From Bradyrhizobium sp. NP1 (lineage in GTDB: Bacteria > Pseudomonadota > Alphaproteobacteria > Rhizobiales > Xanthobacteraceae), in the NCBI RefSeq assembly GCF_030378205.1, contig NZ_CP127385.1, positions 6,054,001 through 6,118,000 of the forward strand: 64,000 bases of DNA, read 5' to 3'. A program made the position numbers and the translations under genes. The notes under the pieces were generated by a model. That model was not told the DNA's origin. It made no database searches and saw only the letters and a program-made list of their open reading frames with translations. Below, piece by piece: positions 2,914 through 33,651 of the stretch (its first letter is position 1; every line of letters starts with the position of its first letter).

Positions 2914-3627
2914 TCAACTAGAGACGCGACGCCGGCGCGACGCTACGATCTGCTTTGGTTTAGCCCCAGCGTCACGTTTGACATCGGCACGAATTACCGC
3001 GGCAAGATCCTTAATGTGATTTCTGGCCTCCCGTTCGGCCAGATCGGGATCGCGCTTGCGCAGCGCTTTCAGGATCTTCTCGTGATCGTTGCAGGAGCGA
3101 GGAAGGTGGGTCGGAATGGAATCGCGTTGGCTCCTCATGATCCGAATTTGCGAGAAAACGGATCGCAGCAGGCGCTCCAGAGTGCGGTTTTGCGTGGCGC
3201 GCAGGATCACCTCATGGAATTCGAGGGCGCTTGTGTAGTAGCCGTCGTTGTCTCCGTTGGCGAGCGCCGCGCGCTGCTGATCGATGCTCTGTTGCAGCAG
3301 CGACAGTTGGAGGTCGGTCACGTTCGTTGCAGCGAGCCGAGCAGCCATGCCCTCCAGGGCTTCGCGGGACATATAGATGTCGAGCACCCGTTCGGGGTCG
3401 TAGCTGACGAGATAAACTCCCCGCCGCGGTACGACTTCCAGGATTCTTTCGGCTTCCAGCCGATAGATCGCGGCCCATAACGGCGTCCTGCTGATGCCGA
3501 GCTGCGCGCACAGTTCATCGACATTGATCTTGTCGCCGGGACCGTAGGCATCGCCCTGCAGCAGCATGTCGCGAACGACGGCATACGCGTCTTCGCTCAA
3601 ATTAGACCGCCTCAGCGTCTTCGCCAT
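2914..3627 (-). CDS. GntR-family transcriptional regulator (FadR/FCD type), copy 1
   Basis: A 237-residue regulator with an N-terminal winged helix (about residues 10-75, with DELCAQLGISRTPLWAAIYR as recognition region) and an all-helical FCD effector domain (about 85-225) carrying the usual Arg/Glu-rich first helix and late His residues. The ATG at 3627 has GGAGG at correct distance; an upstream frame extension lacks this. It is a clear paralogue of the regulator at 18409. Both sit beside a TauE/SafE gene, so they appear to have been duplicated with it. Its ligand is presumably the module 1 substrate or an intermediate, which is inference. Confidence 0.85.
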   Translation of the reverse strand: MAKTLRRSNLSEDAYAVVRDMLLQGDAYGPGDKINVDELCAQLGISRTPLWAAIYRLEAERILEVVPRRGVYLVSYDPERVLDIYMSREALEGMAARLAATNVTDLQLSLLQQSIDQQRAALANGDNDGYYTSALEFHEVILRATQNRTLERLLRSVFSQIRIMRSQRDSIPTHLPRSCNDHEKILKALRKRDPDLAEREARNHIKDLAAVIRADVKRDAGAKPKQIVASRRRRVSS

Positions 3628-3772
3628 TCCGGCCTCCGCGCTTGCCCCCAAAATCGACCATTATCGCGCTATTCCGTGCATCACAAGCCACGGATGCGCA
3701 TTTTCGGCAACAAGCTGAAGGGGTCGTGGAAGAAGATGGCGCCGGTTGATGACCCGGCGAGCAGAAAGATGG

Positions 3773-4537
3773 TCAGAACAGCGCCACGACAGGGTATTGC
3801 TGGACCAGGAGCCTGAGTGCCAGAACAATCGAGATGGTGACCAACACGCGGCGGATCAGGGGAGCTCCCCATCGTAGCGCAAGGCCAGCGCCGATCTGCG
3901 CGCCGATGATTCCGCCCAATGCCATGGCGAGGGCGGCCGGCCACGCAATCAGGCCGCCCGGCAGAAAGATGAGCGCGGCGACAACACTGCCTGCGGTGTT
4001 GAGGATCTTGGTGTCGGCGGTCGCGCTGCGAAGGTCGCGGCCAAGCAGGAGAACGAAAGCGGCAGCGTACATCGAACCGGTGCCCGGCCCGAAGAACCCG
4101 TCGTAGAAGCCGATCGGGAGAACCGCGAGCGCCGCAAAGGCCGCGCCGCCGAGCACGGGCGGCCGCTTTGCGCTCACGTGATTGCGCGAGAAAAGAAAAA
4201 AGCACGCCACGCCGATGAGCAGAAACGGCGCGACCCGCGATACCAGCGACGGATCCGCTACCCGCAGACAATAAGCGCCGGCGCAGGCGCCGGCGACGCT
4301 TGCGACGAGCCGGCCCGCAAGGCCTGTGGTGTCCGCTTCGCCCGACCTGACATACCGATAGGCCGAGGAAGCCACGCTCGCCAGGGCCTGTATCTTATTG
4401 GTCGCGAGCGCCTGGGCCGGAGGCATTCCCGTCAGAAGCAGCGCCGGCAGCGTGATCAGTCCACCGCCCCCGGCGATGGCATCGACGATGCCGGCACAGA
4501 GTGCGACGGCGAATAGCACCAGCAGCTCGAGATACAT
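3773..4537 (-). CDS. TauE/SafE-family permease (possible sulfite/organosulfur-anion exporter), copy 1
   Basis: A 254-residue membrane protein with about 7-8 hydrophobic helices. Family signatures are visible: GIVDAIAGGGGLITLPALLL near the N-terminus and GFYDGFFGPGTGSMYAAAF at the start of the second repeat, plus KILN between helices. TauE/SafE proteins move small sulfur-containing or carboxylate anions across the inner membrane. The ATG at 4537 begins directly at the first helix, 14 bases after the stop of the molybdopterin gene, so the pair is translationally close and surely one operon. The last residues (QQYPVVALF) differ from copy 2 because the repeat ends inside this gene. Confidence 0.85.
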   Translation of the reverse strand: MYLELLVLFAVALCAGIVDAIAGGGGLITLPALLLTGMPPAQALATNKIQALASVASSAYRYVRSGEADTTGLAGRLVASVAGACAGAYCLRVADPSLVSRVAPFLLIGVACFFLFSRNHVSAKRPPVLGGAAFAALAVLPIGFYDGFFGPGTGSMYAAAFVLLLGRDLRSATADTKILNTAGSVVAALIFLPGGLIAWPAALAMALGGIIGAQIGAGLALRWGAPLIRRVLVTISIVLALRLLVQQYPVVALF

Positions 4538-6725
4538 GCAATCCCGCTCGATGTCAGTGCGCGGCGCTGAGGGTCCCGTCCGCGCGATCCAACGCCGAAC
4601 GTTCTCCCTCGTCCCTGTAGACGCGGCACAGCAGGCCCTTGAGAGGGCTGGAACCGAAGGCCAGATCGCAAAGATCAGGATCGTCATCCGTCAGCACGTT
4701 CGAGCATGTCTCGAATATGCCGTGCATCGGATCCGGGTCCTCTGGACGCCACCAGCCATGCGGGATGCCGACCACCCGCTCATGAATCCGATCGTGCAGA
4801 TGGGCACGCATCCGCAGCTTGCCGTGCGACGTCTCGATCCAGGCAAAATCGCCGTCTCGGATCGACAAGGACGCCGCTGTGCGAGGATGGATCTCCAGGA
4901 GCGGCTCCGGCGCGAGGCGCCGCAGCGATTCGACCTGCCGGTTCTGGGAATGCATGTACATCGGCTGCTTCGAGCCGGTAATGAGCAGGAGCGGAAACTC
5001 AGAGAATTTCTCGGGATTTCTCACCGGACTTTCCGGAGGCTCGACGTGTCCCGGCAAAGGGTCATAGCCCCACTCACGCATCATCGTCGAATAGAGCTCG
5101 AACTTTCCGGTCGGGGTGCCGAACCCGGCTTTCTCGTACTTGCGGTACTCGAGCGGGAATTCGATGAACTCGCGCTGCTTGAGCTGCTCCCAGGTGACGC
5201 CGGTCGGTTTCAGCGCCGCATCCGCGATGTCGGCGACCGAGGGGAAATATTCTTCGAACCCGAGCTTCTGTCCGAGTGCAACAATGAACTCCCAGTCCGA
5301 CTTGCGCTCGGCGATGGAGACGAGCCTGGTCGACACGTTGTCCATGTAGGCCGCATGCGGCCCCTTGAGATGAAGGTGCAACCGCGGCTCGTCCCGCTCC
5401 AGATTCCCGGCGGCCGGAAGCACGACGTCGGCAAGTTCCGCCGTCGGCGTCATGAAGATGTCCTGCACAACCAGCAGGTCGAGACTTTTCAATGCGTCGA
5501 TCACCGCGCGCGTATTGGGATAGGTGGTCGCGATATTGCTGCCCGTCACGATCATCGCTCGCACCGGATACGGCTCACCGGAAACCATCGCACGCAACGC
5601 CGTCGGGGGATGAGCAAAGCCATGCCGGTCGAGCGCCTTGAACCTACTGCCGCCGATCCGTTTGGCGGCCTGCTGCGGACTGAGCTTGTCCTTCATGTCG
5701 GGATAGTCGAGCGGGATCGCGGGATAGAAGACGTTGCCGCCGGGCACGTCGATGTTTCCCGTGATCGCCATCAGGCAGAACAGCGCGCGCACCGACTGGA
5801 AGGTGTTGAGCCCGGCGTGGTCGGTGCCGTTGCCCAATACGATGCAAGCCGGCTTAGTCGTCGCGTAGGTACGCGCCGCGCGTGCGATGGCGCCGGCATC
5901 GCACCAGGTGATCTCCGCGACCTTGTGCAGGGGATATTCCTTCGCCCGCGCACGAAGCTCCTCGAACCCATGGCAATATTTTTCCACGAATTCGCGATCG
6001 TAGAGGCCCTCCTCGATGATCAGATTGATCCAGCCGAGCGCCATCGCCGCATCCGTGCCGGGACGGATCGCGAGCCATTGGTCGACCGGGCCGGCCGACG
6101 ACGGCCAGCGCGGATCGACCAGGATGTGTCCGGGACGGCCGCGCAGCGCATCGGTCATCGGAATATGCCCGATCAGCCCGTGATCGTTGCTGGTCCGCTT
6201 CTGCGAGCCCCATTCGACGATGCATTTCGGGTTCGAATAGAAATCCGGGACGACCGCGCCATCCCATGTCTTGTTGCTGAACTTGCCGGTCGCCGAGATC
6301 TGGCAGGCGGCGACGCGAACCGCGTAGCAGAAGTAGCTGATGGCGATCACGTTGGGGGTGCCGAACAGGTTCGCGAGCCGGCTGACGATGTTGGTGTTGT
6401 TCAGGCCCATGCCGCGGGCGAACGCCACCGATTCCGCCCCGGTCTCGTGCCTGATGCGCTGCATCTCGCCAGCAACGAAATCGAGCGCCTCGTCCCAGGT
6501 GACGCGGCGCCATTGTCCGCTGCCGCGCGGGCCGACGCGCATCAGCGGGTAGTCAAGTCGATCGGGATGGTAGAGCTGATCGACCGAAGGTTGCCCCGCC
6601 TTCGAACAGAGCTTGCCTTTGTTGATCGGGTGATCCGGATCGCCCACGACTTCCGTCACGCGCCCGTCTTCCATGTGGACGATCGTTCCGCAACCGCCGT
6701 GGCACATCCGGCAGACCGCCTTGAA
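3798..6725. repeat. 2.9 kb direct repeat, copy 1 (partner at 19196)
   Basis: This segment and 19196-22123 align without net gaps at a constant offset of 15398 bases. It covers nearly all of the TauE gene and the molybdopterin gene from codon about 21 onward. By eye the central part, roughly 4552-5756, is identical in both copies, while both flanks carry scattered substitutions. The ends are abrupt, and sequence outside is unrelated. Confidence 0.9.
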
Positions 6726-6785
6726 GCTCTGCCGCCCTTGCGTCGACGCCTTGTGATCAATTCCGATCCTGGCTGCTACCGGCAT
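4554..6785 (-). CDS. Molybdopterin- and [4Fe-4S]-dependent oxidoreductase (DMSO reductase superfamily), copy 1
   Basis: A 743-residue enzyme without a Tat signal, hence probably cytoplasmic. The N-terminal FeS motif is C25-x2-C28-x3-C32 with a fourth cysteine at C60 (KGKLCSKAG). Cys153 in SYFCYAVRVAA is the likely Mo ligand. The central Mo-bis-MGD domain shows LVDPRWPSSA and VTGSNIATTYPNTR; the C-terminal molybdopterin-binding domain runs from about 600. It resembles the broad formate dehydrogenase, thiosulfate reductase and hydroxylase relatives, but I cannot name a substrate. Upstream GGAGGAG supports the start. It follows the FAD oxidoreductase at 6846 and precedes TauE in one operon. Confidence 0.85.
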   Translation of the reverse strand: MPVAARIGIDHKASTQGRQSFKAVCRMCHGGCGTIVHMEDGRVTEVVGDPDHPINKGKLCSKAGQPSVDQLYHPDRLDYPLMRVGPRGSGQWRRVTWDEALDFVAGEMQRIRHETGAESVAFARGMGLNNTNIVSRLANLFGTPNVIAISYFCYAVRVAACQISATGKFSNKTWDGAVVPDFYSNPKCIVEWGSQKRTSNDHGLIGHIPMTDALRGRPGHILVDPRWPSSAGPVDQWLAIRPGTDAAMALGWINLIIEEGLYDREFVEKYCHGFEELRARAKEYPLHKVAEITWCDAGAIARAARTYATTKPACIVLGNGTDHAGLNTFQSVRALFCLMAITGNIDVPGGNVFYPAIPLDYPDMKDKLSPQQAAKRIGGSRFKALDRHGFAHPPTALRAMVSGEPYPVRAMIVTGSNIATTYPNTRAVIDALKSLDLLVVQDIFMTPTAELADVVLPAAGNLERDEPRLHLHLKGPHAAYMDNVSTRLVSIAERKSDWEFIVALGQKLGFEEYFPSVADIADAALKPTGVTWEQLKQREFIEFPLEYRKYEKAGFGTPTGKFELYSTMMREWGYDPLPGHVEPPESPVRNPEKFSEFPLLLITGSKQPMYMHSQNRQVESLRRLAPEPLLEIHPRTAASLSIRDGDFAWIETSHGKLRMRAHLHDRIHERVVGIPHGWWRPEDPDPMHGIFETCSNVLTDDDPDLCDLAFGSSPLKGLLCRVYRDEGERSALDRADGTLSAAH

Positions 6786-6845: not shown

Positions 6846-8330
6846 CTACTCTTCCCAAAGGTCGAACGCGTCAAAGGCCGCCTTGACCTCGTCTCGATGA
6901 TCCAGAAAGATTTGCCGCGAGATGTCGTCGCAGACGCGCTTGGCGACGAACTGGATTGCCGAGAGGTTGCATCGAAATCCGCTCAGATGCGCGACCCCCG
7001 AACAGAGGTAGTAGATCCGCCCAACGAATGAGTCCTCCGGATCTTTGGGCGTGAACTGCAGCGCTTTGCCAAGATACGGGCTCAGCTCCAGCTCCGGGTG
7101 CGTCCTGCCGTCCTTCGGCGCGTACACGTCCTTCCAGATCCGGATGCGCGGCAGGATGGACTGCAGCTCGGTCTGGCCAAAGATCGAATTGTTCGAACCC
7201 GTCCCGCAGATCATGAAATCGTGCTTGAGCTCGGTGCCGCCGTAATTGCCGACGATCTTTCCGCCCTCGTAGCGGACGCTGTCGATGCCGGCCGCGCCGA
7301 ACAGGCGGAAGCGGGGATCGCGGATGGCCTCGTAGTAGGTGTCGCGCGGCGGCGGCACGCCGAGATCCAGATCGGCCAGGCTGTAGCTCCATTTCATGTC
7401 GTCGGGCAGATCGATGTAGTGGCGGTGATAGCCGACCCATCGGCTACCCCAGCACACGCGATGCGCCTGCGGCAGGTTTGGCCGACGGATCAACAGATCC
7501 ACGCTCTTCGCGCCGACCGCCATCGCGGCGTTGCCCCAGTCGAAGGCGCTCGCGCCGCCCCCGATGACAACGACATCCTTGCCCACAAGATGTGAAATGT
7601 CCGGCTCGGTCATAGTATGGGCGTAGACGCGCTTCGGAAGCGCGTCTTCCACGACCCTGGGAAATCGGTGCTTGCCGGCGCTCTCGATTCCCGTGCAGAG
7701 CACGACGAACTCCGCACGAAACAGCCCGTTTGATGTATGAAGTTCGAAGACGCGATCCGCGGGATTCCAGATGATATCGCGCACCGCCGTCTGGTATCGG
7801 GTGGGCAGATCAACGGTCTCCGCAAACCACTCGAGATAATCCGCCCACAGCGCACGCGGAATCTTCTGAATATTCTCGAAATAGTCCGCGCCGTAACAAG
7901 ACTCACACCAGCGGATGAAGTGCAGGCTCGGGATGCCCCATTCGAGACCGCCGGTCGAATCCTTCTTGGTCCGAAGCAGATGGTTTCGCGCGTAGGTGCG
8001 CCACGGTCCCTGCCGGCCGGGAGGATTCTGATCGAAGATCATGGTGTTCTTGATGCCCTGCCGCAGCAGGCCGAACGAGGTCCCAAGGCCGGTCTGGCCG
8101 CCGCCGACGATCGCAACTTCCAGCACGTCCGCGCGACGCTTGAACGGAAACTGGCGCTTCGGGAATTCGAGGATGTGGATATCCTCCCTCGCCCGGCTGC
8201 GCAGCGCCGCCAGGCGTTGATCGGCGTCCGGCAGCGGAGTCGGCCGGTACAGACGTTCGGCCATCGAAAATTCAGGGGGGACCGGAAGATGCTCGTTCAA
8301 AATCGCCATGAGAAATGTCCCGTTATTCAT
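6846..8330 (-). CDS. FAD/NAD(P)-binding oxidoreductase (flavin monooxygenase-like)
   Basis: A 494-residue protein with two Rossmann motifs: AIVGGGQTGLGTSFGLLRQ near residue 75 for FAD and VVVIGGGASAFDWGNAA near 240 for NAD(P). Between them lies a substrate-domain stretch with tryptophan-rich loops. This layout fits flavin-containing monooxygenases, Baeyer-Villiger-like enzymes or lysine/ornithine N-hydroxylases, although I do not see a clean FMO fingerprint FxGxxxHxxxY. It is the first gene of the operon leading into the molybdopterin and TauE genes. The start is uncertain: an alternative ATG lies at 8309 and neither site has a strong ribosome binding site. The promoter region carries the module 1 motif. 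Confidence 0.75.
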   Translation of the reverse strand: MNNGTFLMAILNEHLPVPPEFSMAERLYRPTPLPDADQRLAALRSRAREDIHILEFPKRQFPFKRRADVLEVAIVGGGQTGLGTSFGLLRQGIKNTMIFDQNPPGRQGPWRTYARNHLLRTKKDSTGGLEWGIPSLHFIRWCESCYGADYFENIQKIPRALWADYLEWFAETVDLPTRYQTAVRDIIWNPADRVFELHTSNGLFRAEFVVLCTGIESAGKHRFPRVVEDALPKRVYAHTMTEPDISHLVGKDVVVIGGGASAFDWGNAAMAVGAKSVDLLIRRPNLPQAHRVCWGSRWVGYHRHYIDLPDDMKWSYSLADLDLGVPPPRDTYYEAIRDPRFRLFGAAGIDSVRYEGGKIVGNYGGTELKHDFMICGTGSNNSIFGQTELQSILPRIRIWKDVYAPKDGRTHPELELSPYLGKALQFTPKDPEDSFVGRIYYLCSGVAHLSGFRCNLSAIQFVAKRVCDDISRQIFLDHRDEVKAAFDAFDLWEE

Positions 8331-8460: not shown

Positions 8461-9537
8461 TTGTCGGAACGACAGCCCATGATCCAAGGCAACGCGACGC
8501 CGTCCACCCGGCTGAGGGTGTTCAAATATCACGCTCTCGGTAACAGCTACCTCGTCGTCGATCCGCGCGACGGCAAGGTGGATGGCTGGTTCGCCGAGCC
8601 TGCCGACGGATCTTTTCGGTGTTCGGCGGCGCTGGCCACGTGGCTTTGCGACCCGTCGCGCGGGATCGGGTCGAACGGCCTGCTGGTCGGGCCAGTCGAG
8701 GTCGCCGAGCCGGATACGTTCGGCCTGTACATCGTCAACTCCGACGGAACGCAGTCGGCCTTCAGCGGCAACGGCATCCGCATCTTCGCGAAATACCTGC
8801 TCGACGCGGGCTATGTCGGCGAGGGCGCCTCGATAGGCGTGCGCACGCTGCTCGATGACCGAACCGAATCCCGAATGGTGGCCCCGGTGCATATTGGCGA
8901 GGCCGAAGACGGCCGTATCGACGTGACCCTGCCCCATGCACCGCAGTTCGGGTCCGACGCCATCGGAGCGGACCACCGGTCGATCATCCCTCTCACCGGC
9001 GACGACAAGGGTCTCTCCTTCACCGTGAAGGCGCTTGCCAGCATCGGCGAGGCGCTGACCGGCGTGCACGAAGCATGGACGGACAGCACGTTCGTCGATA
9101 TCGGCAATCCGCATTGCACCACCTTTGTTCGTGATCCCGCTCACCTCCCCTCGCGGCGGCAGCTTCTTTCCTCGGATGAAGCGCTGCGCGGGATTGCGTT
9201 CCGATCCGATTCCAGCACCACGCGCGTGCCAATCTTCGCGCAGGGCGCGAACCTGCAATGGATCAGGGTTGTCAGCCGGCGCGAGATCGACCTCGTGGTT
9301 TATGAGCGTGGCGAAGGCCCCACGGAAGCCTCGGGATCGAGCGCCTCTGCGGCGGCGTGCGCCGCATGCGCGCGCGGCCTGGTCGATCGGAACATTACGG
9401 TCAACATGCCGGGCGGATCCTTGATGATCCGGATCGTGGCGGATGCTGGGAGCATCGTTTCCGTGACCTTGTCCGGATTTGCCGCCCGGATACTCGAAGC
9501 CTTCGTCGATACGGACGGTCAATGGCCGCCCAGATAG
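8461..9537 (+). CDS. Diaminopimelate-epimerase-fold protein with Ser in place of both catalytic Cys
   Basis: A 358-residue protein of the DapF fold, about 80 residues longer than housekeeping DapF. Both halves of the active site are recognisable, but the proton-transfer cysteines are serines: NSDGTQSAFSGNGIR (Ser102; DapF has CGNG) and ERGEGPTEASGSSASAAA (Ser291; DapF has ACGTG or ACGSG). The oxyanion-hole and backbone motifs GNPHC and the FxKYxALGNSY opening remain. True epimerisation by a Cys pair is therefore unlikely; relatives with altered residues act as isomerases or dehydratases. The TTG start has GGAG upstream; an ATG at 8479 is possible. It is the only plus-strand gene between the two halves of module 1 and overlaps livF tail to tail by 19 bases. 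Confidence 0.8.
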   Translation: MSERQPMIQGNATPSTRLRVFKYHALGNSYLVVDPRDGKVDGWFAEPADGSFRCSAALATWLCDPSRGIGSNGLLVGPVEVAEPDTFGLYIVNSDGTQSAFSGNGIRIFAKYLLDAGYVGEGASIGVRTLLDDRTESRMVAPVHIGEAEDGRIDVTLPHAPQFGSDAIGADHRSIIPLTGDDKGLSFTVKALASIGEALTGVHEAWTDSTFVDIGNPHCTTFVRDPAHLPSRRQLLSSDEALRGIAFRSDSSTTRVPIFAQGANLQWIRVVSRREIDLVVYERGEGPTEASGSSASAAACAACARGLVDRNITVNMPGGSLMIRIVADAGSIVSVTLSGFAARILEAFVDTDGQWPPR

Positions 9538-10226
9538 GCCTCCTGCACGCGACGATCCTCCCGCATGCCCCGCGCACTGTCCTTGAAGGCAACGCTGCCC
9601 AGCTCCAAAACGGCGGCCTCGTCGGCAATCTTGAGCGCTTTCTTGGCGTTCTGCTCAACCAGGAGAATGGTAAGACCTTTTTCCCGGCTCACTTTCGCAA
9701 CCGTGGTAAAGACCTCGGTCACCGCGATCGGCATCAGCCCGACCGACGGCTCGTCCAGCAGCAGCACCTTCGGTCTTGAGAGCATTGCGCGTCCCAGCGC
9801 CAGCAACTGCCCCTCGCCACCCGAAAGCGACTTTGCCGCCTGATCGCGCCTCTTGCCCAGAATCGGAAAGGCATCGCAGATATCCTGCAGCTCCGACTGC
9901 ACCCTTGATCGATCCGACCGGTTGATCGCGCCGATCAGGAGGTTCTCCCGTACGGTCAGGTCCGAAAACAGCCGCCGGCCCTCCGGCACGATCGCAATGC
10001 CGCGCCGGATCCGTTCATGCGTCGCAAGCCGCGAAATGTCCTGGCCGTCGAGGCGTACCGTCCCGGTGGTCGAGACGAGGCCGAGGATACTGCGCAGCAG
10101 CGTGGTCTTTCCCGCTCCGTTGGCGCCAAGCACCGCAAACACGGTGCCCGGTGACATGTTGAGCGTGACGGCGCGAAGTGCCTGAATCCGTCCATAGGAC
10201 GCGCTGAGATTTTCGATCTTAATCAT
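9519..10226 (-). CDS. livF: Branched-chain amino acid type ABC transporter ATP-binding protein (LivF)
   Basis: A 235-residue ATPase with Walker A GANGAGKTTLLR, signature motif SLSGGEGQLLALGRA (GGEGQ where GGQQQ or GEQQ is usual), Walker B KVLLLDEPSVGLMP and a switch His in the VEQNAKK region. Together with LivG it energises the LivHM permease on the cytoplasmic side. Its ATG overlaps the stop of livG as ATGA, so it is translationally coupled and last in the livHMGF operon. Liv systems in catabolic clusters often carry aromatic acids or amides rather than amino acids; the cargo here is unknown. Confidence 0.9.
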   Translation of the reverse strand: MIKIENLSASYGRIQALRAVTLNMSPGTVFAVLGANGAGKTTLLRSILGLVSTTGTVRLDGQDISRLATHERIRRGIAIVPEGRRLFSDLTVRENLLIGAINRSDRSRVQSELQDICDAFPILGKRRDQAAKSLSGGEGQLLALGRAMLSRPKVLLLDEPSVGLMPIAVTEVFTTVAKVSREKGLTILLVEQNAKKALKIADEAAVLELGSVAFKDSARGMREDRRVQEAYLGGH

Positions 10227-10966
10227 CAGTCCTCCGTTCCCAGATAGGCCGAGACCACCGCCTCGTTCAGCCTGATCGCGTCGGGGGTTCCTTCCGCGAT
10301 CTTGTGACCGCGGTCGAGCACGACCAGCCTGTCGCACAGGTTCATCGTGATATGCATGTTGTGCTCGATCAGAAGCACCGTCATGCCGCCAGTCCTGAGT
10401 TCGAGCACGAGTTCGGAGAGCGATTCGGTCTCCTTGTGGCTCAGCCCCGAGAACGACTCGTCGAGCAGCAGGAGCTTCGGCTGCAACGCCAACGCGCGAG
10501 CGATCTCGAGGCGGCGCAGCAGGCCAAGCGGCAGGTTCCGCGCCACCTCGTTCTCCACCGCCAGCAGCCGCGTGCTCGCAAGTATCGCGCGCGCCTTGTC
10601 GAGGTGCTTCTGGCGCTTGCAGAGGCGCAAGGCGCCGGGAAGGCTTCTGCACGGCACCGCGCCCATGCCGGCGAGGACATTGTCGAGCACGCTGAGCTCG
10701 CCAAACGGCCGCACGATCTGGAACGTTCTGCCAATTCCGAGATGGGCGACCCGATGCGGCGGGAGCCCGCCAATGCTGCGGCCGTCGAACGTGATGCTTC
10801 CCGACGACAGTGGGATGGCCCCGCTGACGAGGTTGAAGAATGTGGTCTTTCCGGCCCCGTTCGGGCCGATGACGCCCATGATCTCGCCTTCGGCAACGTC
10901 GAATGTGACCTTGCTGACGGCCGTCAGCCCACCGAAATGCCGGGTCGCCTCATGGATACTGAGCAT
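10226..10966 (-). CDS. livG: Branched-chain amino acid type ABC transporter ATP-binding protein (LivG)
   Basis: A 246-residue ATPase. Walker A is GPNGAGKTTFFN, followed by the LivG-type loop GRTFQIVRPFGELSVLDNVL, and Walker B PKLLLLDESFSGLSHKE, where the usual DEP is DES. The canonical LSGGQ signature is weak: the stretch before Walker B reads LPLGLLRRLEIARALALQ. This loosened signature also occurs in other LivG-like proteins, so it may still be functional. It overlaps livM by 17 bases upstream and livF by 3 bases downstream, showing a tight operon. Confidence 0.88.
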   Translation of the reverse strand: MLSIHEATRHFGGLTAVSKVTFDVAEGEIMGVIGPNGAGKTTFFNLVSGAIPLSSGSITFDGRSIGGLPPHRVAHLGIGRTFQIVRPFGELSVLDNVLAGMGAVPCRSLPGALRLCKRQKHLDKARAILASTRLLAVENEVARNLPLGLLRRLEIARALALQPKLLLLDESFSGLSHKETESLSELVLELRTGGMTVLLIEHNMHITMNLCDRLVVLDRGHKIAEGTPDAIRLNEAVVSAYLGTED

Positions 10967-11873: not shown

Positions 11874-11875
11874 AA

Positions 11876-12748: not shown

Positions 12749-12888
12749 GATGCCTTCCTCCGAAACGCGTTGATTTTTCAATCGGCCGTGGTCACGCGAT
12801 TCAGAACCAACGGCTGGTTGTCAGCGGCAGCGTTTACATGCCGCCAATCCCGACACTGAAGACGTCGACAGCGTCCGGGAGCGGAGCG

Positions 12889-22174: not shown

Positions 22175-22205
22175 TTGGCCTCTCAAAGCCAGTCGCCGGC
22201 ACGAG

Positions 22206-23426: not shown

Positions 23427-23565
23427 GATGAATTTCTCTCGCACGAGAGGCGTCCTCAGATCGCCGCGCGCCGCTATCAATAGTTGACGGTGGGGACAGC
23501 GCGTCCCTTCTCGGAAAACGAATCTGGCGGACGCGCTATCGCCGATTGCGTGGTATCCGGGAAAG

Positions 23566-25189: not shown

Positions 25190-25680
25190 TAGCGGGTTCG
25201 GTTCGAGTTATCGCGGAATTTTATAGCCCGTTGCACGGCAGGACGCTGCGCAATTGAGCCAGCGGGTCTCGGCGGCAAATCGCTCCTCTGCAGAGGGCGC
25301 CTTTCCTGGTCGAACTTTCGAAATGCGTGAGTTTGGCCGAACACCGGGCCAATGCCAACACCCTGCCACCACAACCATTCAAGCACCCGATAGCGCTTCG
25401 CCTCGTCAGACGGGATAAGACGACGAGTTTTGTCGGCCAAATACGTGAGGATCGCTCCCGACTCCACGAAAGTCGTTCCAGCTTCAGCATCCACAATAGC
25501 CGGAATCTTGTTGTTAAGGCTTGTGCGCAGAACGTCGCCACTAAGCTGGTCACCCCTTGGTGATATCGACCGGATGCACACGATAGGGAATTCCAAGCTC
25601 TTCGAGAGCGATCGAAACCTTGCGTCCATTAGGAGTCGACCAAGTGTAGGTCGACCGATCATCTTGCTATCATCCGGTTG
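25190..25680 (-). pseudogene. Glutathione S-transferase remnant, frameshifted
   Basis: Reading the minus strand gives STYTWSTPNGRKVSIALEEL then GIPYRVHPVDITKG in one frame, which is the N-terminal thioredoxin-fold start of GSTs. At a GGGG run near 25556-25560 the frame breaks; the next frame continues DQLSGDVLRTSLNNKIPAIV, ESGAILTYLADKTRRLIP and WLWWQGVGIGPVFGQTHAF. Downstream the match decays again and the C-terminal domain is not intact. Start codon and ribosome binding site are absent. It lies between the GntR and tctB genes and has no expected role. Confidence 0.75.
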
Positions 25681-25701: not shown

Positions 25702-26193
25702 TCAAAAAGGAAGCGGGCCTTTTGGTAGCGGGACGCCGAGCTGGATGAACCCCACATACGAAATTGCGACGCTCATTGCCGCGATCAGCCCAGACGCACG
25801 CCACGTCATGTCGCTGAAACCTCTCATCATGAGCATCAATACGAGAATGGTCGCGATCACGAACCCGATGAAATTGAGCACGAACGCGTAGGCGCACAGG
25901 GCGGCCGCAGCAACAACCACTCTCATCATGCCGGCTTCAAGCTTCAGCTTTTCAACGCCGCCGCTGAATGACCTTGCATAGATGCCGGCACCAAAGATCA
26001 GCAGCAGAACGGACAGAGTCTTCGGGAAAAAACCCGAGTCCGGGGCGCGAACCGAACCATATGGAAGATCCATTGACGCAAGAAGCGCGGCCGCCGAGAT
26101 GAGACAAATTGCCAGCCCGCTTGTCCGGTCTGAATTTCCGAAAATGAAGCGAACGATTTTGCGCTCCGACTTCCCGGCAACGGTGTGATCCAT
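25702..26193 (-). CDS. tctB: Tripartite tricarboxylate transporter small membrane subunit (TctB)
   Basis: A 163-residue protein with four predicted helices (about residues 27-42, 60-75, 88-120 and 134-155). The family pattern MDLPYGSVRAPDSGFFPKTL is present after helix 1, and the C-terminal helix ends in LGVPLPKGPLPF, as in TctB proteins. With TctA it forms the inner-membrane part of a secondary uptake system served by a TctC binding protein. It is divergent from tctC (26343), with an operator-like element between. In other clusters tctB lies next to tctA; here tctA is 2 kb away. Confidence 0.85.
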   Translation of the reverse strand: MDHTVAGKSERKIVRFIFGNSDRTSGLAICLISAAALLASMDLPYGSVRAPDSGFFPKTLSVLLLIFGAGIYARSFSGGVEKLKLEAGMMRVVVAAAALCAYAFVLNFIGFVIATILVLMLMMRGFSDMTWRASGLIAAMSVAISYVGFIQLGVPLPKGPLPF

Positions 26194-26342: not shown

Positions 26343-27314
26343 ATGAGGCGCTTTATACTGTCAGCCGCTGTACTGATCGTCGTTGGTGCGACGCCCGGCG
26401 TTTGTTCGCCATCGGACTTTCCGGCCAAGGCCATCAGCTTGGTCGTTCCCTTTCCAGCAGGCGGTCGAACCGACGTGGTGTGTCGGATTGTCGCAAGCGG
26501 CCTGTCCAAGGAACTCAAGAAGCCCGTCGTAGTAATAAACCGTCCGGGCGCTGGTGGCGTGCTTGGCGCGCGTGAAGTGGCAGATGCGGCTCCGGACGGC
26601 TACACGCTCGGCTGCTTTTCCAGCGCGTCCGTGTCTGCGCAATACACTGTGCCGACGCCTATCTCTCTTTCAGAATTCAAGCTGATCGCCGTCGTAAACA
26701 CAGATCCTGCAGCGGTCGCTGTTCAGTATTCGGCTCCTTATAAGAGCCTGAAGGACTTGATCGAAGCCGCGCGTTCAAACCCCGGAAAATTGCGTCTCGG
26801 TACTATTCCGGGAGCTTCTGCTCAGATCTTCGCCGCCGGTCTGCTGCTCGGGGGCGGAGTAAATATGGTTGAGGTCCCCTTTAAGGGTGATGCGGATGGA
26901 GCAATCGCACTAGCAGGGAATCACATCGATGCTCATGTCGCAGTACCGGTTTCTTATCAAGCTCTCGTCGCGGCAAAAAAGGTTCGGATACTCGCCGTTG
27001 CGAGCAACCAGAGAAGTTCATTTTATGGAATGCTCCCAACGTTCAAAGAGAACGGGATCGATCTTTCGATATCCGCTTTCCACGGCATTTTTGCACCCAA
27101 TCGGACTCCGCCGATTGCCTTGAGCCGTGTTGCAGAGGCGATCGAAGCAGCCATGCAGTCGACTGAAGTACGAGACACCATGAATAAAGTTGGCGCTGGC
27201 TGGGCTAACATCAACGGTGAAAAAGCAGACGCCTTCCTACAGCAGCAGGACGTTACCTACAAAAACATCATAACGCAGTTGAAGCTCGATGAAGCTCACC
27301 AGGTACAAAAATAA
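26343..27314 (+). CDS. tctC: Tripartite tricarboxylate transporter binding protein (TctC/Bug family)
   Basis: A 323-residue periplasmic binding protein. An N-terminal signal peptide (about 20 residues, cleavage near GVCS) is followed by the Bug-family opening FPAKAISLVVPFPAGGRTD, then VINRPGAGGVLGAREVA, PDGYTLG and LRLGTIPGASAQIFAAGLLL, all in the usual order. Bug proteins bind carboxylates, including aromatic and heterocyclic acids. It should work with the TctB and TctA encoded nearby and replaces the ABC transporter used in module 1. A strong terminator follows. Confidence 0.88.
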   Translation: MRRFILSAAVLIVVGATPGVCSPSDFPAKAISLVVPFPAGGRTDVVCRIVASGLSKELKKPVVVINRPGAGGVLGAREVADAAPDGYTLGCFSSASVSAQYTVPTPISLSEFKLIAVVNTDPAAVAVQYSAPYKSLKDLIEAARSNPGKLRLGTIPGASAQIFAAGLLLGGGVNMVEVPFKGDADGAIALAGNHIDAHVAVPVSYQALVAAKKVRILAVASNQRSSFYGMLPTFKENGIDLSISAFHGIFAPNRTPPIALSRVAEAIEAAMQSTEVRDTMNKVGAGWANINGEKADAFLQQQDVTYKNIITQLKLDEAHQVQK

Positions 27315-27318
27315 CAGG

Positions 27319-28145: not shown

Positions 28146-29693
28146 CTAAGCGATCAAGCTCTTTTTGATTTTTGAGTCCCCTACCTTGTCGCCGCCACGT
28201 CCGCCAATTGACAGCAGCTTTCGAGCAATTGGGATTCCAATAACCACGAGAAACGCCGTCATTATCGTGCCCGATACAGGGCTGCCCCAGAAGACGAGAA
28301 AATCGCCGTTCGACATGATAAGAGACTGCCGCAGCGCGGTCTCCATTATAGGCCCAAGCACAAAAGCCAATACGAGCGGAGCATGAGGAAAGCGGAACTT
28401 GGTCATCAGGTACCCCAGGAGACCAAACAGCGTCATCACTACGATGTCTGTCGGATTATTGTTCACGCCATACGCTCCGGCCAAACATGCGAGTACGATA
28501 ATTGGCAACAATATCCGGTTCGGTATCAGAGTGATTTTTGACAGCAGACCGATCAGCGGGAGCATCGTGATAAGCAGGATGCAGTTTCCGATAAACATGC
28601 TCGTCACGATGGCCCAGAATATCTGAGGGTGTTGCGCCATAAGCGTTGGACCTGGCGTCACGCCGTGCAGCATGAATGCTCCGAGTATGAGGGCCATCAC
28701 GACATTGTCCGGCAATCCCAATGTCAGAAGCGGGACAAACCCGCTACACGTGGCTGCGTTCGCTGCCGCTTCGGGCGCGGCTACACCAGCGATTGCTCCC
28801 TCTCCGAACTGTTGTCCTGGCTTTCGGAAACGCTTTGCTACCGCGTATGCGACGTAGGATGAAATCGTCGCTCCACCACCGGGCAAAAGCCCGACGAAGA
28901 AGCCAGTGAACGATCCTTGCAGGATTGCTCGCCAAGCATCCTTCCAATCTTGCCGAGTTGGTAAGACGTTCAAAAGCCCCTTGGGGACGCTGATCGGACG
29001 CACCTCCCCTGTCAGCTTCGATTCAACCAAATTGAAGACCTCAGCAATGCCAAACAGTCCCATCACCATTGGGACCAGATCGATGCCGGACTGCAGGCTA
29101 AGAGATCCCAAAGTAAATCTGGCTGTACTCCTTACGGGATCCAATCCCACGGTACCCAACAATAGGCCAAAGATCGTTACTGTAACGGCCTTCCACATCG
29201 AGTCGGTGGCGAGATAACTCACCAGGGTAAGACCGAGCAGCGTAAGAGCAAAGTACTCGGGGGGCCCGAATTCCAAAGCAAATTCAGCCAGGGTCGGAGC
29301 TACGAGACCCAATCCGATAAGCCCGATCATTCCCGCGATGAAAGCACTGAAGATTGACATCCCAAGCGCCGCGCCCGCTCGACCACGTTTGGTGAGTTGA
29401 TAGCCATCCAAAGCGACCATTACGGAGGCGGATTCGCCTGGAACACTGAGTAGGATCGACGTGACTGAGCCTCCATACATCGAACCGTACCAAATTCCAG
29501 CGAGCATGATGACGGCCGTGATCGTGTCGAGAAAATAGGTGATCGGAAGTAGAAGCGCGATTGTCGCTGCCGAGCCGAGCCCAGGAAGCACGCCGATGAG
29601 AACACCGAGGACAACCCCGACGAAGCATAGCAGGAGATTGATCGGGAGGAGCGATACGGAAAATCCCATCGCTAGGTTCGAAAAGATATCCAT
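28146..29693 (-). CDS. tctA: Tripartite tricarboxylate transporter large membrane subunit (TctA)
   Basis: A 515-residue integral membrane protein with 11-12 helices. TctA signatures: GVVLGVLIGVLPGLGSAATI at the first repeat, GVAAPEAAANAATCSGFVPL at the second, plus LSVPGESASVMVALDGYQ. It forms the transport channel with TctB, driven by ion gradients. Upstream lies the TGTATTCA element at 29735. A ribosome binding site GAGGAAAA precedes the ATG. It ends with a short basic tail. Confidence 0.9.
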   Translation of the reverse strand: MDIFSNLAMGFSVSLLPINLLLCFVGVVLGVLIGVLPGLGSAATIALLLPITYFLDTITAVIMLAGIWYGSMYGGSVTSILLSVPGESASVMVALDGYQLTKRGRAGAALGMSIFSAFIAGMIGLIGLGLVAPTLAEFALEFGPPEYFALTLLGLTLVSYLATDSMWKAVTVTIFGLLLGTVGLDPVRSTARFTLGSLSLQSGIDLVPMVMGLFGIAEVFNLVESKLTGEVRPISVPKGLLNVLPTRQDWKDAWRAILQGSFTGFFVGLLPGGGATISSYVAYAVAKRFRKPGQQFGEGAIAGVAAPEAAANAATCSGFVPLLTLGLPDNVVMALILGAFMLHGVTPGPTLMAQHPQIFWAIVTSMFIGNCILLITMLPLIGLLSKITLIPNRILLPIIVLACLAGAYGVNNNPTDIVVMTLFGLLGYLMTKFRFPHAPLVLAFVLGPIMETALRQSLIMSNGDFLVFWGSPVSGTIMTAFLVVIGIPIARKLLSIGGRGGDKVGDSKIKKSLIA

Positions 29694-30012: not shown

Positions 30013-31110
30013 CTAGTCCGAGCATTTCGGGCGTGGATCTCCAATCGTTCCGTCTATCGCAAACTCCTGGAGGTCTACGCGTTTTCCCTTCGATAGAAGC
30101 GCACCCTCATAAACCTTCATAACCTGAAGGGCGAATTCCAGCGAACCCTTCTCGGGCATTTCGTTTTTCAGAATACAACTGCAAAAGTATTGCATCTCGT
30201 TGTAGATGCCTTGGGTGAACAGCGACTTGTTCTCCAGCGTGCCTTCCCTGTTTTGCGGCTCCCACACGAGTGCGCCGTGGTCAAAGCCTTCCGGGGCAAA
30301 TGATGTATTTCGACCATATTCGAACGGAATGCCCCTATTGAAGATTACTCGGCTGCCATTTTCGACTACGACATGAGCCCCTTCACTCGCAAAGCTATAC
30401 CGCTCAACGGGCTGCCCCCGGTTTGGACCTGAAATCATGTGGAAATTGCCAATGGCGCCATTTGCGAACTCTAAGACGCAGATGCCGCTCCCATCATTGG
30501 CGCGATGGACGGTAACGGCGGATACCCCTCCTCCGACAGCCATGCAAAGAGATAGCGGATGGCAACCATTGCGAAGCCAATTTGCAACGACGCCGCTTTT
30601 CAATACTTCACCGCCGTCTTCCGGGATGGTCATGGGATATTCGGCAAGTATTGTCTGTAGTGGCCCAAGCTCGGGACGAGAAAATATCTCGATTACCTTT
30701 TCGACCGCGGGCATAAAGACCTTCTTAAAGCCTACCACTGCAACACGATCACCTCGATGACGGATCATCTCGGATATTTCGTGAGGCCATCGCGCCGGAG
30801 GTTTCTCCAGCCAAACGTGCAAGCCCGCGTCAAACGCGGCGCACGCCAGCTCCGGATGCACTGTCGGGGATACGCTCAGAAGCACTGCGTCCAGCTCGAC
30901 GTTACGATACATGTCGACGGCGTTTTCAAAGCACGCCTTCACGCCGTATTGGGCAGCCGTCGCACGGCACCGCTCCTTATCCACATCGCAGAATGCCTGT
31001 AACGAGACGGGCAAGTAGTTCATGGCCGGAAGCAGGTTTCGATAGGCGTGAGATCCAACTCCGACCATTCCCACTTTGAGTTTTCGAACGAATTCACGTT
31101 GATATGTCAT
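30013..31110 (-). CDS. Gfo/Idh/MocA-family NAD(P)-dependent dehydrogenase
   Basis: A 365-residue oxidoreductase. The Rossmann motif [18 protein letters not shown] starts at about residue 12, and the catalytic EKP motif ([10 protein letters not shown]) is near residue 105, as in the family. The C-terminal domain is the alpha/beta sheet that binds substrate, with [13 protein letters not shown]. Most members oxidise or reduce sugars or inositols, some act on other hydroxy or keto compounds. It lies downstream of the Rieske gene on the same strand but behind a hairpin, so its coupling is uncertain. It has no counterpart in module 1. Confidence 0.85.
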
Positions 31111-31169: not shown

Positions 31170-32489
31170 TTAATGAACAGGGTCTTTGAGTATCTCTGAC
31201 GCCTCTTGTTCATCGAAGTATTTTCGAATCAGCTCGGTCAAAACCGGGCTCCATTTATTTGCGGTTCGGGCCCTGCTCCGCAGCTGTGTTTGTTGATAGC
31301 CCCAATTGTCCTCATCCTCCACGTGCGGCACGCTAATGCTCTTTGCCTCTCCGGGATCACGGAAGACATTCAGAGGATCTTTTCCGCTCGCCACAACCTG
31401 GACTTGTTCGAGGAACATTTCACGAAGCAGGCGAACGCCTTTGTCAGACTCGCAAAGAAGCTCCTTCGTGCGATCGGAGATCGCGCCCTGCGCGATCCAG
31501 GCGGCCATGTCCTGCGTCGCATGGGCATCGAGGTCTTTCCACTTGATCTCGCCCATGCGATTTGGATCTTCGATGGGGACCGGAATGTGGAAATACGGGA
31601 CCTTATCTTGTTTTGCGACGTCCCCCGGCTTGAGCCAGTGCGCCCTGATCAGAAAATAGGTGAAGTGTGCATCGTCAACTGGAACGCGGATTTGCAGGTC
31701 ATTGACGGCGCGAGCAAAGTTTGGAAATACAACCTGGATCCCAATCCGCCAGTCCACGTCATCCTTCGTACGATCCCCGTATACTGCCCGCCTCAGGATA
31801 CCAAGATTGTTCCGCTCGTAGAGCATCTCCTTGAGGCGCGCGCGATCTCCGTCGCCCTTGTGTTCGCCAGGCCGCCAGAAGCGCTTCCGTAAATCTGGCC
31901 TTCCCTGCCTCTCCAGAACGTAATCGGAGAATGCGACATGCAGCCAATCCAGGTGATCCTGATCGACCGCGTTCTCCATGCTTTGAAACCAATTGCAGGG
32001 CAAAGTTGCATAAGCGATTTCGTGAAGGACGTTCTCCTCCGTCATCAAATCCCACATGGGCAGCTCTGGCGCCGGAAGGGGCCCTAAGTACGCAAACACA
32101 GCACCGCAAGCTACTCGGACAGGATACGCTTTCAATTTTACTTTCTCGCAGTACGGATGCCCTCGGTCCTTTTCGGCGGGCTGTTCCAAACATTGCCCAT
32201 TCTCGTTGAAGCGCCAGCCGTGATACGGGCAGCGCAACCCGGATTCTTCCGGCACACCCAAGACCAAATGAGCGCGACGGTGCGCGCAAAGACTGTCAAT
32301 CAAACCCAGCGTGCCTGAACGGTCCCTGTAGAGCACAAGATCCTCTCCCAACAATCGGATGGATTTGACCGGGTTTTCATCCAGCTCGGCCGCTGCTGCG
32401 ATCGGGTACCAATAGCGGCGCAATAATTCGCCCCCTGGTGTTCCGGGGCCCACCTGGGTGAGCATTTTGTTTTCTTCAGCGGTCACCAT
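31170..32489 (-). CDS. Rieske non-heme iron oxygenase, alpha subunit (module 2)
   Basis: A 439-residue oxygenase of the phthalate 4,5-dioxygenase / 5,5'-dehydrodivanillate O-demethylase group, recognised from the start TAEENKMLTQVGPGTPGGEL followed by LRRYWYPIAAAAEL. Rieske ligands: C68-x-H70 and C87-x2-H90 (CPYHGW). Catalytic iron site: MENAVDQDHLDWLH with His179 and His184. It is longer than the module 1 Rieske and only distantly related to it, so the two modules probably act on different substrates. GAGGGAG precedes the ATG. It is divergent from its reductase across the TGTATTCA sites. Confidence 0.9.
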   Translation of the reverse strand: MVTAEENKMLTQVGPGTPGGELLRRYWYPIAAAAELDENPVKSIRLLGEDLVLYRDRSGTLGLIDSLCAHRRAHLVLGVPEESGLRCPYHGWRFNENGQCLEQPAEKDRGHPYCEKVKLKAYPVRVACGAVFAYLGPLPAPELPMWDLMTEENVLHEIAYATLPCNWFQSMENAVDQDHLDWLHVAFSDYVLERQGRPDLRKRFWRPGEHKGDGDRARLKEMLYERNNLGILRRAVYGDRTKDDVDWRIGIQVVFPNFARAVNDLQIRVPVDDAHFTYFLIRAHWLKPGDVAKQDKVPYFHIPVPIEDPNRMGEIKWKDLDAHATQDMAAWIAQGAISDRTKELLCESDKGVRLLREMFLEQVQVVASGKDPLNVFRDPGEAKSISVPHVEDEDNWGYQQTQLRSRARTANKWSPVLTELIRKYFDEQEASEILKDPVH

Positions 32490-32550
32490 TCGTCATTCTC
32501 CCTCATCAAAATCCTTGAGTTCGCGCCCTGGGGTGCGAAGCCTGCACCGG

Positions 32551-32608
32551 CATACTGGCTACTGTATTCACTTTTTAGGTGACAGACAAGTGCATGGGGT
32601 GTATTCAG
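32551..32608. promoter_or_regulatory. Module 2 double operator-like element between Rieske and reductase genes
   Basis: Two TGTATTCA cores lie 29 bases apart (32563-32570 and 32600-32607), the first within CATACTGGCTACTGTATTCA. The pair sits in the divergent promoter of the Rieske (32489) and reductase (32659) genes, which suggests cooperative binding by the GntR-type regulator. Confidence 0.5.
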
Positions 32609-32658
32609 CCGGCAGGGCGGAAAGCTATTCCGCCGCAGTTAGGCACAACACTCCGCCG

Positions 32659-33651
32659 ATGGGCGCCAATCCAGGCGGGGAGCCCACACAGGAAGCGGCT
32701 TTGCCGCAACAACTGATGCTAGATCTGCGCGTAAAATCTACGACCTGGGAAGCTCCCAACATCATTTCGTATGAGCTTAGATCCACCGACGGCTCATCGT
32801 TGCCTGAATTCACCGCGGGTGCCCACATCGATTTGAAGCTCCCCACCGGCGTAATGCGGAGCTATTCCTTGCTTAACCCTCAGGGGGAGAGGGACAGGTA
32901 CATAATTGCCGTACAAAAGGATCGGATGAGCCGGGGAGGTTCGAAGTGGATACATCAAAATCTTAGGGCCGGCGAAGTACTTTCCACTTCCGGTCCGCGC
33001 AATAATTTCCGACTTCTGGAAGAGGCCGACAAGTCGGTCCTCATTGCAGGCGGTATAGGTATCACCCCTATGCTAAGTATGGTCGAACGCCTCAAATTCT
33101 TAAAGAAAGACTGGGAGCTGTTCTTCTGCGCTCGTACGCGTAATTCCACGCCCTTTGTGGAAAAGCTTCAATCTGACGCGCGCGTCCGATTTAATTTTGA
33201 CAGGGAACGAGGGGGCAGCATGCTCGACATGGCGACCCTAATCAGTTCATACGACCTCCACACGCACTTTTATTGTTGTGGCCCTCTATCTATGCTCGAG
33301 GCATTTGAAACAGCCACTGCACATCTTCCTCGCGAGCAGGTTCACGTTGAATATTTTACGGCGGCAGAGCCTCCTGCTACCGCGGGAGGCTTTAAGGTTG
33401 TTCTGGCTAAGTCGGGTCGCGAAATCGACGTCCCTCCTGGCAAGACTATTCTCGATGCTTTGAACGATGCTGGAATTGTGACACCGTATTCCTGCGCCGA
33501 AGGAGTTTGCGGGACGTGCGAGACCTTTGTTCTCGAAGGTATTCCTGATCATCGAGACCGAATTCTTACCGAGGCCGAGAAGACGTCGAACAAGAAGATG
33601 ATGATCTGTTGCTCGGGATCCAAGAGCGAGCGACTTGTCTTAAACCTCTAA
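32659..33651 (+). CDS. Phthalate dioxygenase reductase-type oxidoreductase (module 2)
   Basis: A 330-residue reductase in PDR domain order: FMN barrel with MRSYSLLNPQGERD, NAD domain with VLIAGGIGITPMLSM and YCCGPLSML, and the C-terminal ferredoxin CAEGVCGTCETF with a last Cys in MICCSGSK. It is a paralogue of the module 1 reductase and should serve the divergent Rieske oxygenase. The start is uncertain because no clear ribosome binding site precedes ATG 32659; a GTG at 32599 overlaps the operator-like element. Confidence 0.88.
   Translation: MGANPGGEPTQEAALPQQLMLDLRVKSTTWEAPNIISYELRSTDGSSLPEFTAGAHIDLKLPTGVMRSYSLLNPQGERDRYIIAVQKDRMSRGGSKWIHQNLRAGEVLSTSGPRNNFRLLEEADKSVLIAGGIGITPMLSMVERLKFLKKDWELFFCARTRNSTPFVEKLQSDARVRFNFDRERGGSMLDMATLISSYDLHTHFYCCGPLSMLEAFETATAHLPREQVHVEYFTAAEPPATAGGFKVVLAKSGREIDVPPGKTILDALNDAGIVTPYSCAEGVCGTCETFVLEGIPDHRDRILTEAEKTSNKKMMICCSGSKSERLVLNL

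Follow-up and report, generated by a model that had tools for sequence, protein, structure and literature searches.

Gene content of the two modules

The window, 64,000 nucleotides of contig NZ_CP127385.1 from Bradyrhizobium sp. NP1, carries two gene sets (modules 1 and 2, Table 1) that probably serve the breakdown of compounds. An earlier note had named a TauE/SafE permease, a molybdopterin FeS oxidoreductase (here the Mo enzyme), a PuuD-like membrane protein with cytochrome c, a GlcG/HbpS protein, a Rieske oxygenase, a PDR-type reductase and FCD-type GntR regulation in both halves of the region, and Pfam scans, translations and the comparison between the copies found each gene type at its place. 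The family scans covered 20 proteins of both modules. The Liv binding protein, LivG, LivM, LivH, TctA and TctC were identified from their translations alone; Mo2 and TauE2 were recognised by their likeness to the first copies. The E-values of both PuuD domains against PF06181 exclude a chance match. TauE copy 1 reached 158 bits with PF01925 (cut-off 32.6), which makes it a family member for which sulfite transport is only predicted, and both GlcG copies reached 104 bits with PF03928 (cut-off 25), as members of GlcG/HbpS. The start of TauE1 was picked by reading at the ATG at 4537, 16 bp after the Mo stop, within an ORF listed as 3773-4687. In module 2, glcG2, puuD2, mo2 and tauE2 follow each other on the same strand and only 19 bp separate puuD2 from mo2. 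The ORF over the glutathione S-transferase remnant (25291-25648) had no Pfam match.

Table 1. Features of the two modules, with positions in the window
Feature	Position	Strand	Evidence or remark
GntR/FCD regulator, module 1	2914..3651	-	Pfam FCD 7.7e-31, GntR 3e-13
TauE/SafE permease, module 1	3773..4537	-	Pfam TauE 3.7e-46
Identical 1,205-bp stretch shared by the modules	4552..5756		gene conversion tract; partner at +15398
Mo/[4Fe-4S] enzyme, module 1	4554..6785	-	acetylene-hydratase-like fold, His29 replaces Asp13
FAD/NAD(P)-binding oxidoreductase (Lys/Orn N-oxygenase-like; FMO)	6846..8330	-	Pfam PF13738, PF13434
DapF-like epimerase/isomerase	8461..9537	+	PF01678 3.2e-25; TIGR00652 117.3 bits vs 114.65
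LivF, LivG, LivM, LivH branched-chain-type ABC transporter	9519..12781	-	LivF Pfam, others translation
GlcG/HbpS-like, module 1	12921..13385	-	PF03928 7.6e-30
Liv-type substrate-binding protein	13473..14690	-	translation only
PuuD-II membrane cytochrome c, module 1	14739..15971	-	PF06181 1.5e-116; CxxCH + Met kept
PDR/VanB-type reductase, module 1	16034..17047	-	Fer2 + NAD_binding_1
Rieske oxygenase 1 (VanA/SxtT-like)	17112..18263	-	Rieske 9.3e-24, VanA_C 5.8e-20; SxtT 7.2e-64
GntR/FCD regulator, module 2	18415..19125	+	family scan
TauE/SafE permease, module 2	19183..19935	-	97% aa to copy 1; ORF listed 19183-20085
Mo/[4Fe-4S] enzyme, module 2	19952..22186	-	98.6% aa to copy 1
PuuD-II membrane cytochrome c, module 2	22206..23480	-	PF06181 1.4e-114
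GlcG/HbpS-like, module 2	23566..24030	-	PF03928 7.2e-30
Second GntR/FCD regulator of module 2	24363..25178	+	family scan
Glutathione S-transferase remnant, two frames	25291..25648	-	tblastn pieces 50.6% + 75.9% aa, 3.7e-32
TctB	25702..26193	-	PF07331 3.2e-17
TctC-type binding protein	26343..27314	+	translation only
TctA-type membrane subunit	28146..29693	-	translation only
Gfo/Idh/MocA oxidoreductase	30013..31110	-	PF01408 2e-15
Rieske oxygenase 2 (LigXa_C / phthalate 4,5-dioxygenase-like)	31170..32489	-	Rieske 5.8e-21, LigXa_C 4.6e-14; 7fhr 3e-51
PDR-type reductase, module 2	32458..33651	+	family scan; 49% aa to reductase 1

Between the modules, amino acid identity falls from 98.6% for Mo, 97% for TauE and 90% for GlcG to 67% for PuuD, 57% for GntR, 49% for the reductase and 33% for the Rieske protein. 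The Mo-TauE segment is 97.2% identical in nucleotides (3794-6725 vs 19192-22123) and includes the gene conversion tract. Neither this near-identity nor the glutathione S-transferase remnant is mentioned in the earlier note. Since 43 of the 51 differences between the Mo copies fall on codon position 3, both copies look selected (in the codon comparison TauE was taken to begin two bases from the stop of Mo; the preferred start is the ATG at 4537). Given this gradient, and near-identity only in Mo-TauE, the Mo enzyme, TauE and GlcG look like a common part, and PuuD looks like it belongs with the Rieske protein and the reductase to a specific part. That the whole module was duplicated recently in tandem was rejected because PuuD1 and PuuD2 fall into different supported subclades and only Mo-TauE is nearly identical. 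The gene-converted pair is a natural test of which pathway parts are shared and which are substrate-specific.

The PuuD-II clade

A PuuD tree was built from 65 of 120 listed proteins (48 nearest and 17 further ones) and from 11 loci, those of 20 tried that gave a usable frame by a simple rule. Both PuuD copies fell into a clade of 49 rows, PuuD-II (SH-aLRT 100, stem 0.69), with the PuuD of the genus outside; this tree was built quickly and carries a single kind of support, its ordinary PuuD proteins are mostly close kin, and the clade itself was delimited on it. Three loci with very long branches, probably cut wrongly (L004, L005 and L010), were dropped before residues were counted in 49 clade rows against 24 others. 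At 22 positions, including L37T, S40K, Y88R and I198H, a fixed switch was observed (85% or more on both sides). By a weak helix model, 17 of the 22 would lie in helices I, II, V and VI or in loops I-II and V-VI, the most conserved parts of PuuD (PMC4562309). This alone is no sign of changed catalysis, because conserved regions hold most of the columns able to show such switches. The heme ligands C328, C331, H332 and M373 were invariant in 60 rows. Both copies have the Urate_ox_N domain and a cytochrome c with CxxCH and the distal Met, the motif being read from the sequence, since in module 1 the cytochrome domain reached 20.1 of the 27 bits that Pfam requires and in module 2 it was unlisted.

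All full-length DUF989/COG3748/PF06181 members have been assigned to purine degradation (PMC4562309). That the two proteins are ordinary urate oxidases caught in an aromatic island would agree with the full PF06181 match, the cytochrome c motif and the automated annotation 'urate hydroxylase PuuD' on several relatives, including the in-clade one from Pusillimonas. We regard this as very unlikely. HIU hydrolase (PF00576) and OHCU decarboxylase (PF09349) had 0 matches in the single-contig source genome (G000), PuuD-II is a separate clade with fixed switches, and the neighbours of PuuD1 and PuuD2 include no purine genes, whereas the PuuD of G160, the sole ordinary context examined in the genus, adjoins a xanthine-dehydrogenase-type gene. 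All 4 genus members with an ordinary PuuD that were tested have both downstream enzymes; the link is not strict, since another member (G004) has both enzymes and no PuuD at 1e-80. Ordinary urate oxidation is therefore disfavoured: the membrane cytochrome of both modules resembles urate oxidase, and urate is probably not its substrate. If a PuuD clade has altered residues at conserved sites and its host genome gives no match to a downstream urate enzyme, the PuuD family would gain a second role.

The Mo enzyme

The nearest structure to the Mo enzyme is acetylene hydratase (PDB 2e7z), with which it shares the fold over 681 residues, the 4Fe-4S Cys motif and the Cys metal ligand. One source describes Asp13 as specific for the acetylene hydratase subfamily and its exchange for Ala as abolishing activity; it presents acetylene hydratase as the only Mo- or W-enzyme without a redox reaction and the relatives as uncharacterised (PMC12096430). 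At the position of the catalytic Asp13 the Mo enzyme has His29, as do 57 of 57 Mo rows, so that the Asp beside the second cluster Cys is absent, and Trp179 aligns to Gly203. Acetylene hydratase proper was rejected on account of His29. The wider idea of a genuine hydratase without redox chemistry, which would treat an unsaturated product from ring cleavage or a side chain in the way acetylene hydratase treats acetylene, is opposed by the same two residues, and we consider it improbable.

The second nearest structure is polysulfide/thiosulfate reductase (PDB 2vpw). In contrast to that enzyme, neither Mo copy adjoins a PsrB- or PsrC-type partner; the neighbours are TauE and FMO for copy 1 and TauE and PuuD for copy 2, and FeS or membrane partner subunits are absent there. 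No export signal was seen on reading the sequence, and the Mo enzyme is presumably cytosolic. The PhsA model gave 286 of 694 bits and the formate dehydrogenase model TIGR01591 283 of 666 bits. Formate dehydrogenases have a Cys or Sec followed by the catalytic His; this pair was not found in the Mo enzyme, where Cys153-Tyr154 is invariant. The Mo enzyme appears to belong to an uncharacterised, His-type branch near acetylene hydratase. It could help to show the origin of acetylene hydratase chemistry, because it is nearest to that enzyme and yet differs in the key residue.

The earlier note had suggested an N-heterocycle, which may apply, or a sulfur-containing leaving group, for which we found little basis beyond the family name of TauE. 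In a desulfonation the Rieske enzyme would release sulfite from a sulfonated aromatic compound; the sulfur anion would be handled by the Mo enzyme and exported by TauE. TauE family membership, the structural rank of polysulfide reductase and the likeness of Mo and TauE across both modules fit this, but the only NCBIfam model listed for TauE (a hypothetical protein) was matched with 196 bits at a 383-bit cut-off, the PhsA score is low against its threshold and PuuD is left without a place. Its chances are accordingly poor.

Occurrence in other genomes and a proposed route

Mo-TauE was found again in a second genus (G233), in a contig with Mo, TauE, FMO and Liv genes that ends inside a Rieske gene, of which it holds the C-terminus. 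Identities were 80% for the FAD/NAD(P) oxidoreductase, 51% for the DapF-like protein and 65-79% for the Liv genes, which have the same order. A relative of the glutathione S-transferase remnant comes after TauE. PuuD was not found in the G233 assembly at E 1e-20; it may be dispensable, though the contig breaks off within the Rieske gene. The Rieske match of 97% at this contig edge is not special: 9 of 11 relatives share 31-39 of the 39 residues and one shares 24, the eleventh having a shifted end. In an Afipia MAG with a PuuD-II contig (L003), a Liv-type binding protein (83-85% aa) lies between PuuD and GlcG, and no Mo match was found at E 1e-100 in this MAG, which may be incomplete. Pusillimonas noertemannii was named for a Mo and for a PuuD relative, the linkage there being unseen. 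Three Rieske 1 relatives (52-57%) are on plasmids, and Mo, PuuD and GlcG were not matched within 9 kb of them. The genome samples came from larger groups and partly overlap.

Contig sharing was analysed in the best 120 rows each for Mo, Rieske and PuuD, with multi-contig clusters represented by their longest contig. PuuD and Mo relatives shared 3 contigs of at least 5 kb, equated by equal longest-contig size and source with the neighbourhoods themselves unseen, and 0 of 400 length offsets reached 3 (87 Mo, 67 Rieske and 54 PuuD rows, compared by first source letter). Without the limits on size and source the shared-contig counts were 3, 2 and 1 against 0.55, 0.44 and 0.97 by chance (120 Mo, 118 Rieske and 118 PuuD rows, the window's own two PuuD left out). 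PuuD and Mo relatives thus appear to sit on common contigs.

These results bear on the earlier proposal of a reusable core beside Rieske genes. Its parts recur, as Mo-TauE in G233, as PuuD, binding protein and GlcG in Afipia and as the PuuD/Mo contigs; the four-gene core may not be strict, because no PuuD was found in G233 and no Mo in the Afipia MAG.

PuuD-II might, without being a catalyst itself, accept electrons at the membrane from the cytosolic Mo enzyme, in a two-part dehydrogenase running from the cytosol to the periplasmic cytochrome c. The short puuD2-mo2 gap and the common contigs are in line with this, as are the 20 scanned proteins, which include no partner subunit of FeS or NrfD type, and the conserved PuuD loops, cytosol-facing by the published topology (PMC4562309). 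It is nevertheless unlikely, as Mo occurs without a detected PuuD in G233, the two proteins diverge unequally between the modules (for which conversion may account), and in its known role PuuD itself is held responsible for urate oxidation.

Taken together, the oxygenase, the PuuD-like cytochrome and the Mo enzyme hint at an undescribed degradation route. Our main reading, to which we give a probability of roughly 0.45, is that of two paralogous catabolic modules. It starts from the observed gene content and order, the sequence clade, the missing matches to both downstream urate enzymes and the gene conversion; from these we infer the substrates, the sequence of reactions, the direction in which TauE transports, the metal and what GlcG does. 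The Liv or Tct systems would import the substrate, and the two-component Rieske oxygenase with its PDR reductase would hydroxylate or dealkylate it. PuuD-II could then oxidise the electron-rich product at the cytosolic membrane face, by a two-electron logic analogous to urate oxidation, and pass the electrons to its own periplasmic cytochrome c. A cytosolic bis-pterin enzyme with Mo (or W) may process this product or a small fragment that the two pathways have in common, while TauE would move an anion across the membrane and GlcG would assist. More tentatively, the non-purine PuuD/DUF989 branch, as a cytochrome-c-linked membrane oxidase, and the His-type acetylene-hydratase-like Mo/W enzyme might form an undescribed plug-in core for different Rieske oxygenases in aerobic ring catabolism, kept partly uniform by gene conversion. 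In an open-access library of papers no pathway combining PuuD, Mo, GlcG, TauE and Rieske genes was found, in keeping with the earlier note.

The closest known system to PuuD-II, the cytochrome c urate oxidase PuuD (COG3748, DUF989; Doniselli 2015, PMC4562309), has the same Urate_ox_N domain, C-terminal cytochrome c motif and heme ligands, whereas PuuD-II differs by its clade and 22 switches, by its place among Rieske, Mo and GlcG genes and by a source genome without matches to the two downstream enzymes. Unlike acetylene hydratase, the Mo enzyme lies among aerobic catabolic genes. Two-component Rieske oxygenases of the VanAB type combine a Rieske domain and a VanA_C or LigXa_C domain with a PDR reductase nearby, as do both modules, the nearest known types being SxtT for Rieske 1 and the phthalate 4,5-dioxygenase type for Rieske 2; in contrast to these, the oxygenase genes here are accompanied by those for PuuD, Mo, GlcG and TauE.

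Gene content of the window

The window covers bases 6054001-6118000 of a single-contig genome of 7.71 Mb. Two gene sets occupy 2.9-33.7 kb, and more ring-cleavage genes follow from there to the window end. The gene classes that the earlier note had named in both halves were recovered there by Pfam scans of 20 proteins. The second copies of the Mo/[4Fe-4S] enzyme (Mo2) and of TauE were assigned because they resemble copy 1; reading of the translations identified the Liv binding protein, LivG, LivM, LivH, TctA and TctC. No tRNA was detected in the window by ARAGORN, and no match there reached the Rfam gathering score. The module pair is real, non-random and of unusual composition; it does not prove a new pathway. 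The genes adjoining module 2 perhaps encode a hydroxyquinol-type lower pathway, and two extradiol-type ring-cleavage genes give the window the appearance of an island for aromatic catabolism.

Features and their positions (window coordinates unless stated)
Feature	Position	Remark
Conserved block, module 1	3794-6725	gap-free
Conserved block, module 2	19192-22123	gap-free
Mismatch-free run	4552-5756	1,205 bp
Glutathione S-transferase (GST) remnant	25291-25648	frameshifted
Intradiol dioxygenase, iron-containing alcohol dehydrogenase family, FAD monooxygenase	34364-37744	adjoining module 2
ChrB C-terminal-domain protein	37692-38285	among aromatic genes
Extradiol-type, glyoxalase type	38382-39347
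352-aa protein	40570-41628	membrane-type by reading; no Pfam match at 1e-6
BisC/TorA-type Mo enzyme	54513-56831	third Mo enzyme in window; TIGR00509, 946.5 of 1017.55 bits
Rieske gene	58570-59724	beyond BisC/TorA-type enzyme
Extradiol-type, LigB/MhpB type	62685-63707
Mycetohabitans rhizoxinica gene row	L088 (plasmid locus) 6549-12867	consecutive genes

Uneven divergence of the modules

Protein identity between the modules was very uneven: 98.6% for Mo, 97% for TauE, 90% for GlcG and 67% for the PuuD-like protein, then 57% for GntR, 49% for the reductase and 33% over 172 residues for the Rieske protein. This gradient suggests a division in which Rieske, reductase and PuuD are specific to the substrate, and something common to both modules is handled by Mo, TauE and GlcG. 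The conserved DNA blocks were 97.2% identical, with 82 mismatches, and outside the mismatch-free run they diverged by 4.7%. When mismatches were placed at random 20,000 times, the longest run never exceeded 450 bp, and we therefore take the 1,205-bp run to mark gene conversion between the copies. Both Mo copies look selected, since 43 of the 51 Mo-gene mismatches fall at codon position 3.

Linkage of the core genes

Contig sharing was scored as exact size coincidence in the same source, at 5 kb or more, among the best 120 rows of each list (Mo, Rieske 1, PuuD1). Mo and PuuD coincided three times (11529, 5754, 32515), Mo and Rieske twice (9018, 6484) and Rieske and PuuD once (27437). These counts were reached at 0, 2 and 16 of 400 length offsets, respectively, and the chance means with all lengths and sources mixed were 0.55, 0.44 and 0.97. 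Accordingly, Mo-PuuD linkage is well supported, Mo-Rieske linkage fairly and Rieske-PuuD linkage alone weakly.

In G233, a genome of another genus of the family, a Rieske C-terminus at the contig edge is followed by LivH-LivM-LivG-LivF, a DapF-like gene, a malic-enzyme-type gene (minus strand), an FAD/NAD(P)-binding oxidoreductase (80%), Mo (79%), TauE (67%) and a GST; no reductase, binding protein or GlcG was seen in 40 kb. Because this relative of the window's GST remnant follows TauE, a GST may once have belonged to the module. A 3.2 kb Afipia MAG contig carries, in module 1 order, a reductase end (37 residues), PuuD (76%), a binding protein and partial GlcG. Pusillimonas noertemannii is the named source of a Mo relative (71%) and also of a PuuD relative (67%). 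Of the proposed core, Mo and PuuD appear to share contigs and Mo and TauE recur together in G233, but PuuD was not found in G233 (E 1e-20), nor Mo in the Afipia MAG (E 1e-100).

The nearest solved structures are SxtT for Rieske 1 and a putative phthalate 4,5-dioxygenase for Rieske 2. Rieske oxygenases can occur without the core, since three plasmid relatives of Rieske 1 (Pantoea, Rhodococcus, Mycetohabitans) lie in other clusters, with no Mo, PuuD or GlcG match at 1e-8 within 9 kb; the Mycetohabitans relative has an annotated TauE nearby. The M. rhizoxinica row (TauE, 4-HPA-hydroxylase-like, Rieske with 57% identity to Rieske 1, diaminobutyrate transaminase-like, SidA-like) looks biosynthetic.

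PuuD-II and the urate oxidase family

A quick 76-row tree placed the two PuuDs of the window, together with the Afipia MAG and P. noertemannii proteins, in a 49-row clade, PuuD-II (stem 0.69, SH-aLRT 100); the genus's ordinary PuuD falls outside it. PuuD1 and PuuD2 belong to separate supported subclades (5 and 6 rows), from which we infer that the modules diverged long ago or came in separately. The heme ligands are invariant, 121 positions are common at 95% or more, and 22 are fixed switches (at least 85% on each side). One clade protein, P0274, is attributed to a Ktedonobacteraceae MAG, possibly through a binning error.

The modules would act by uptake, then oxygenation by the Rieske enzyme and oxidation by PuuD-II, with electrons passing to cytochrome c; a Mo-enzyme step and the transport of an anion would follow. 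In the chief rival reading, the Mo enzyme would hand its electrons to PuuD-II. The suggested sulfur chemistry draws nearly all its support from the TauE family name.

Doniselli and colleagues (PMC4562309) place every full-length member of the family (DUF989, COG3748, PF06181) in purine degradation. At E 1e-80, PuuD was present in 115 of 195 genus genomes including our own, whose two matches both lie in the window. OHCU decarboxylase and HIU hydrolase were looked for in nine genomes. Neither matched in our genome or in G233, and two of three PuuD-less genomes lacked both, the third (G004) having both. All four genomes chosen for ordinary PuuD carry both enzymes, and in G160, the one ordinary PuuD context scanned, PuuD adjoins a xanthine-dehydrogenase-type gene.
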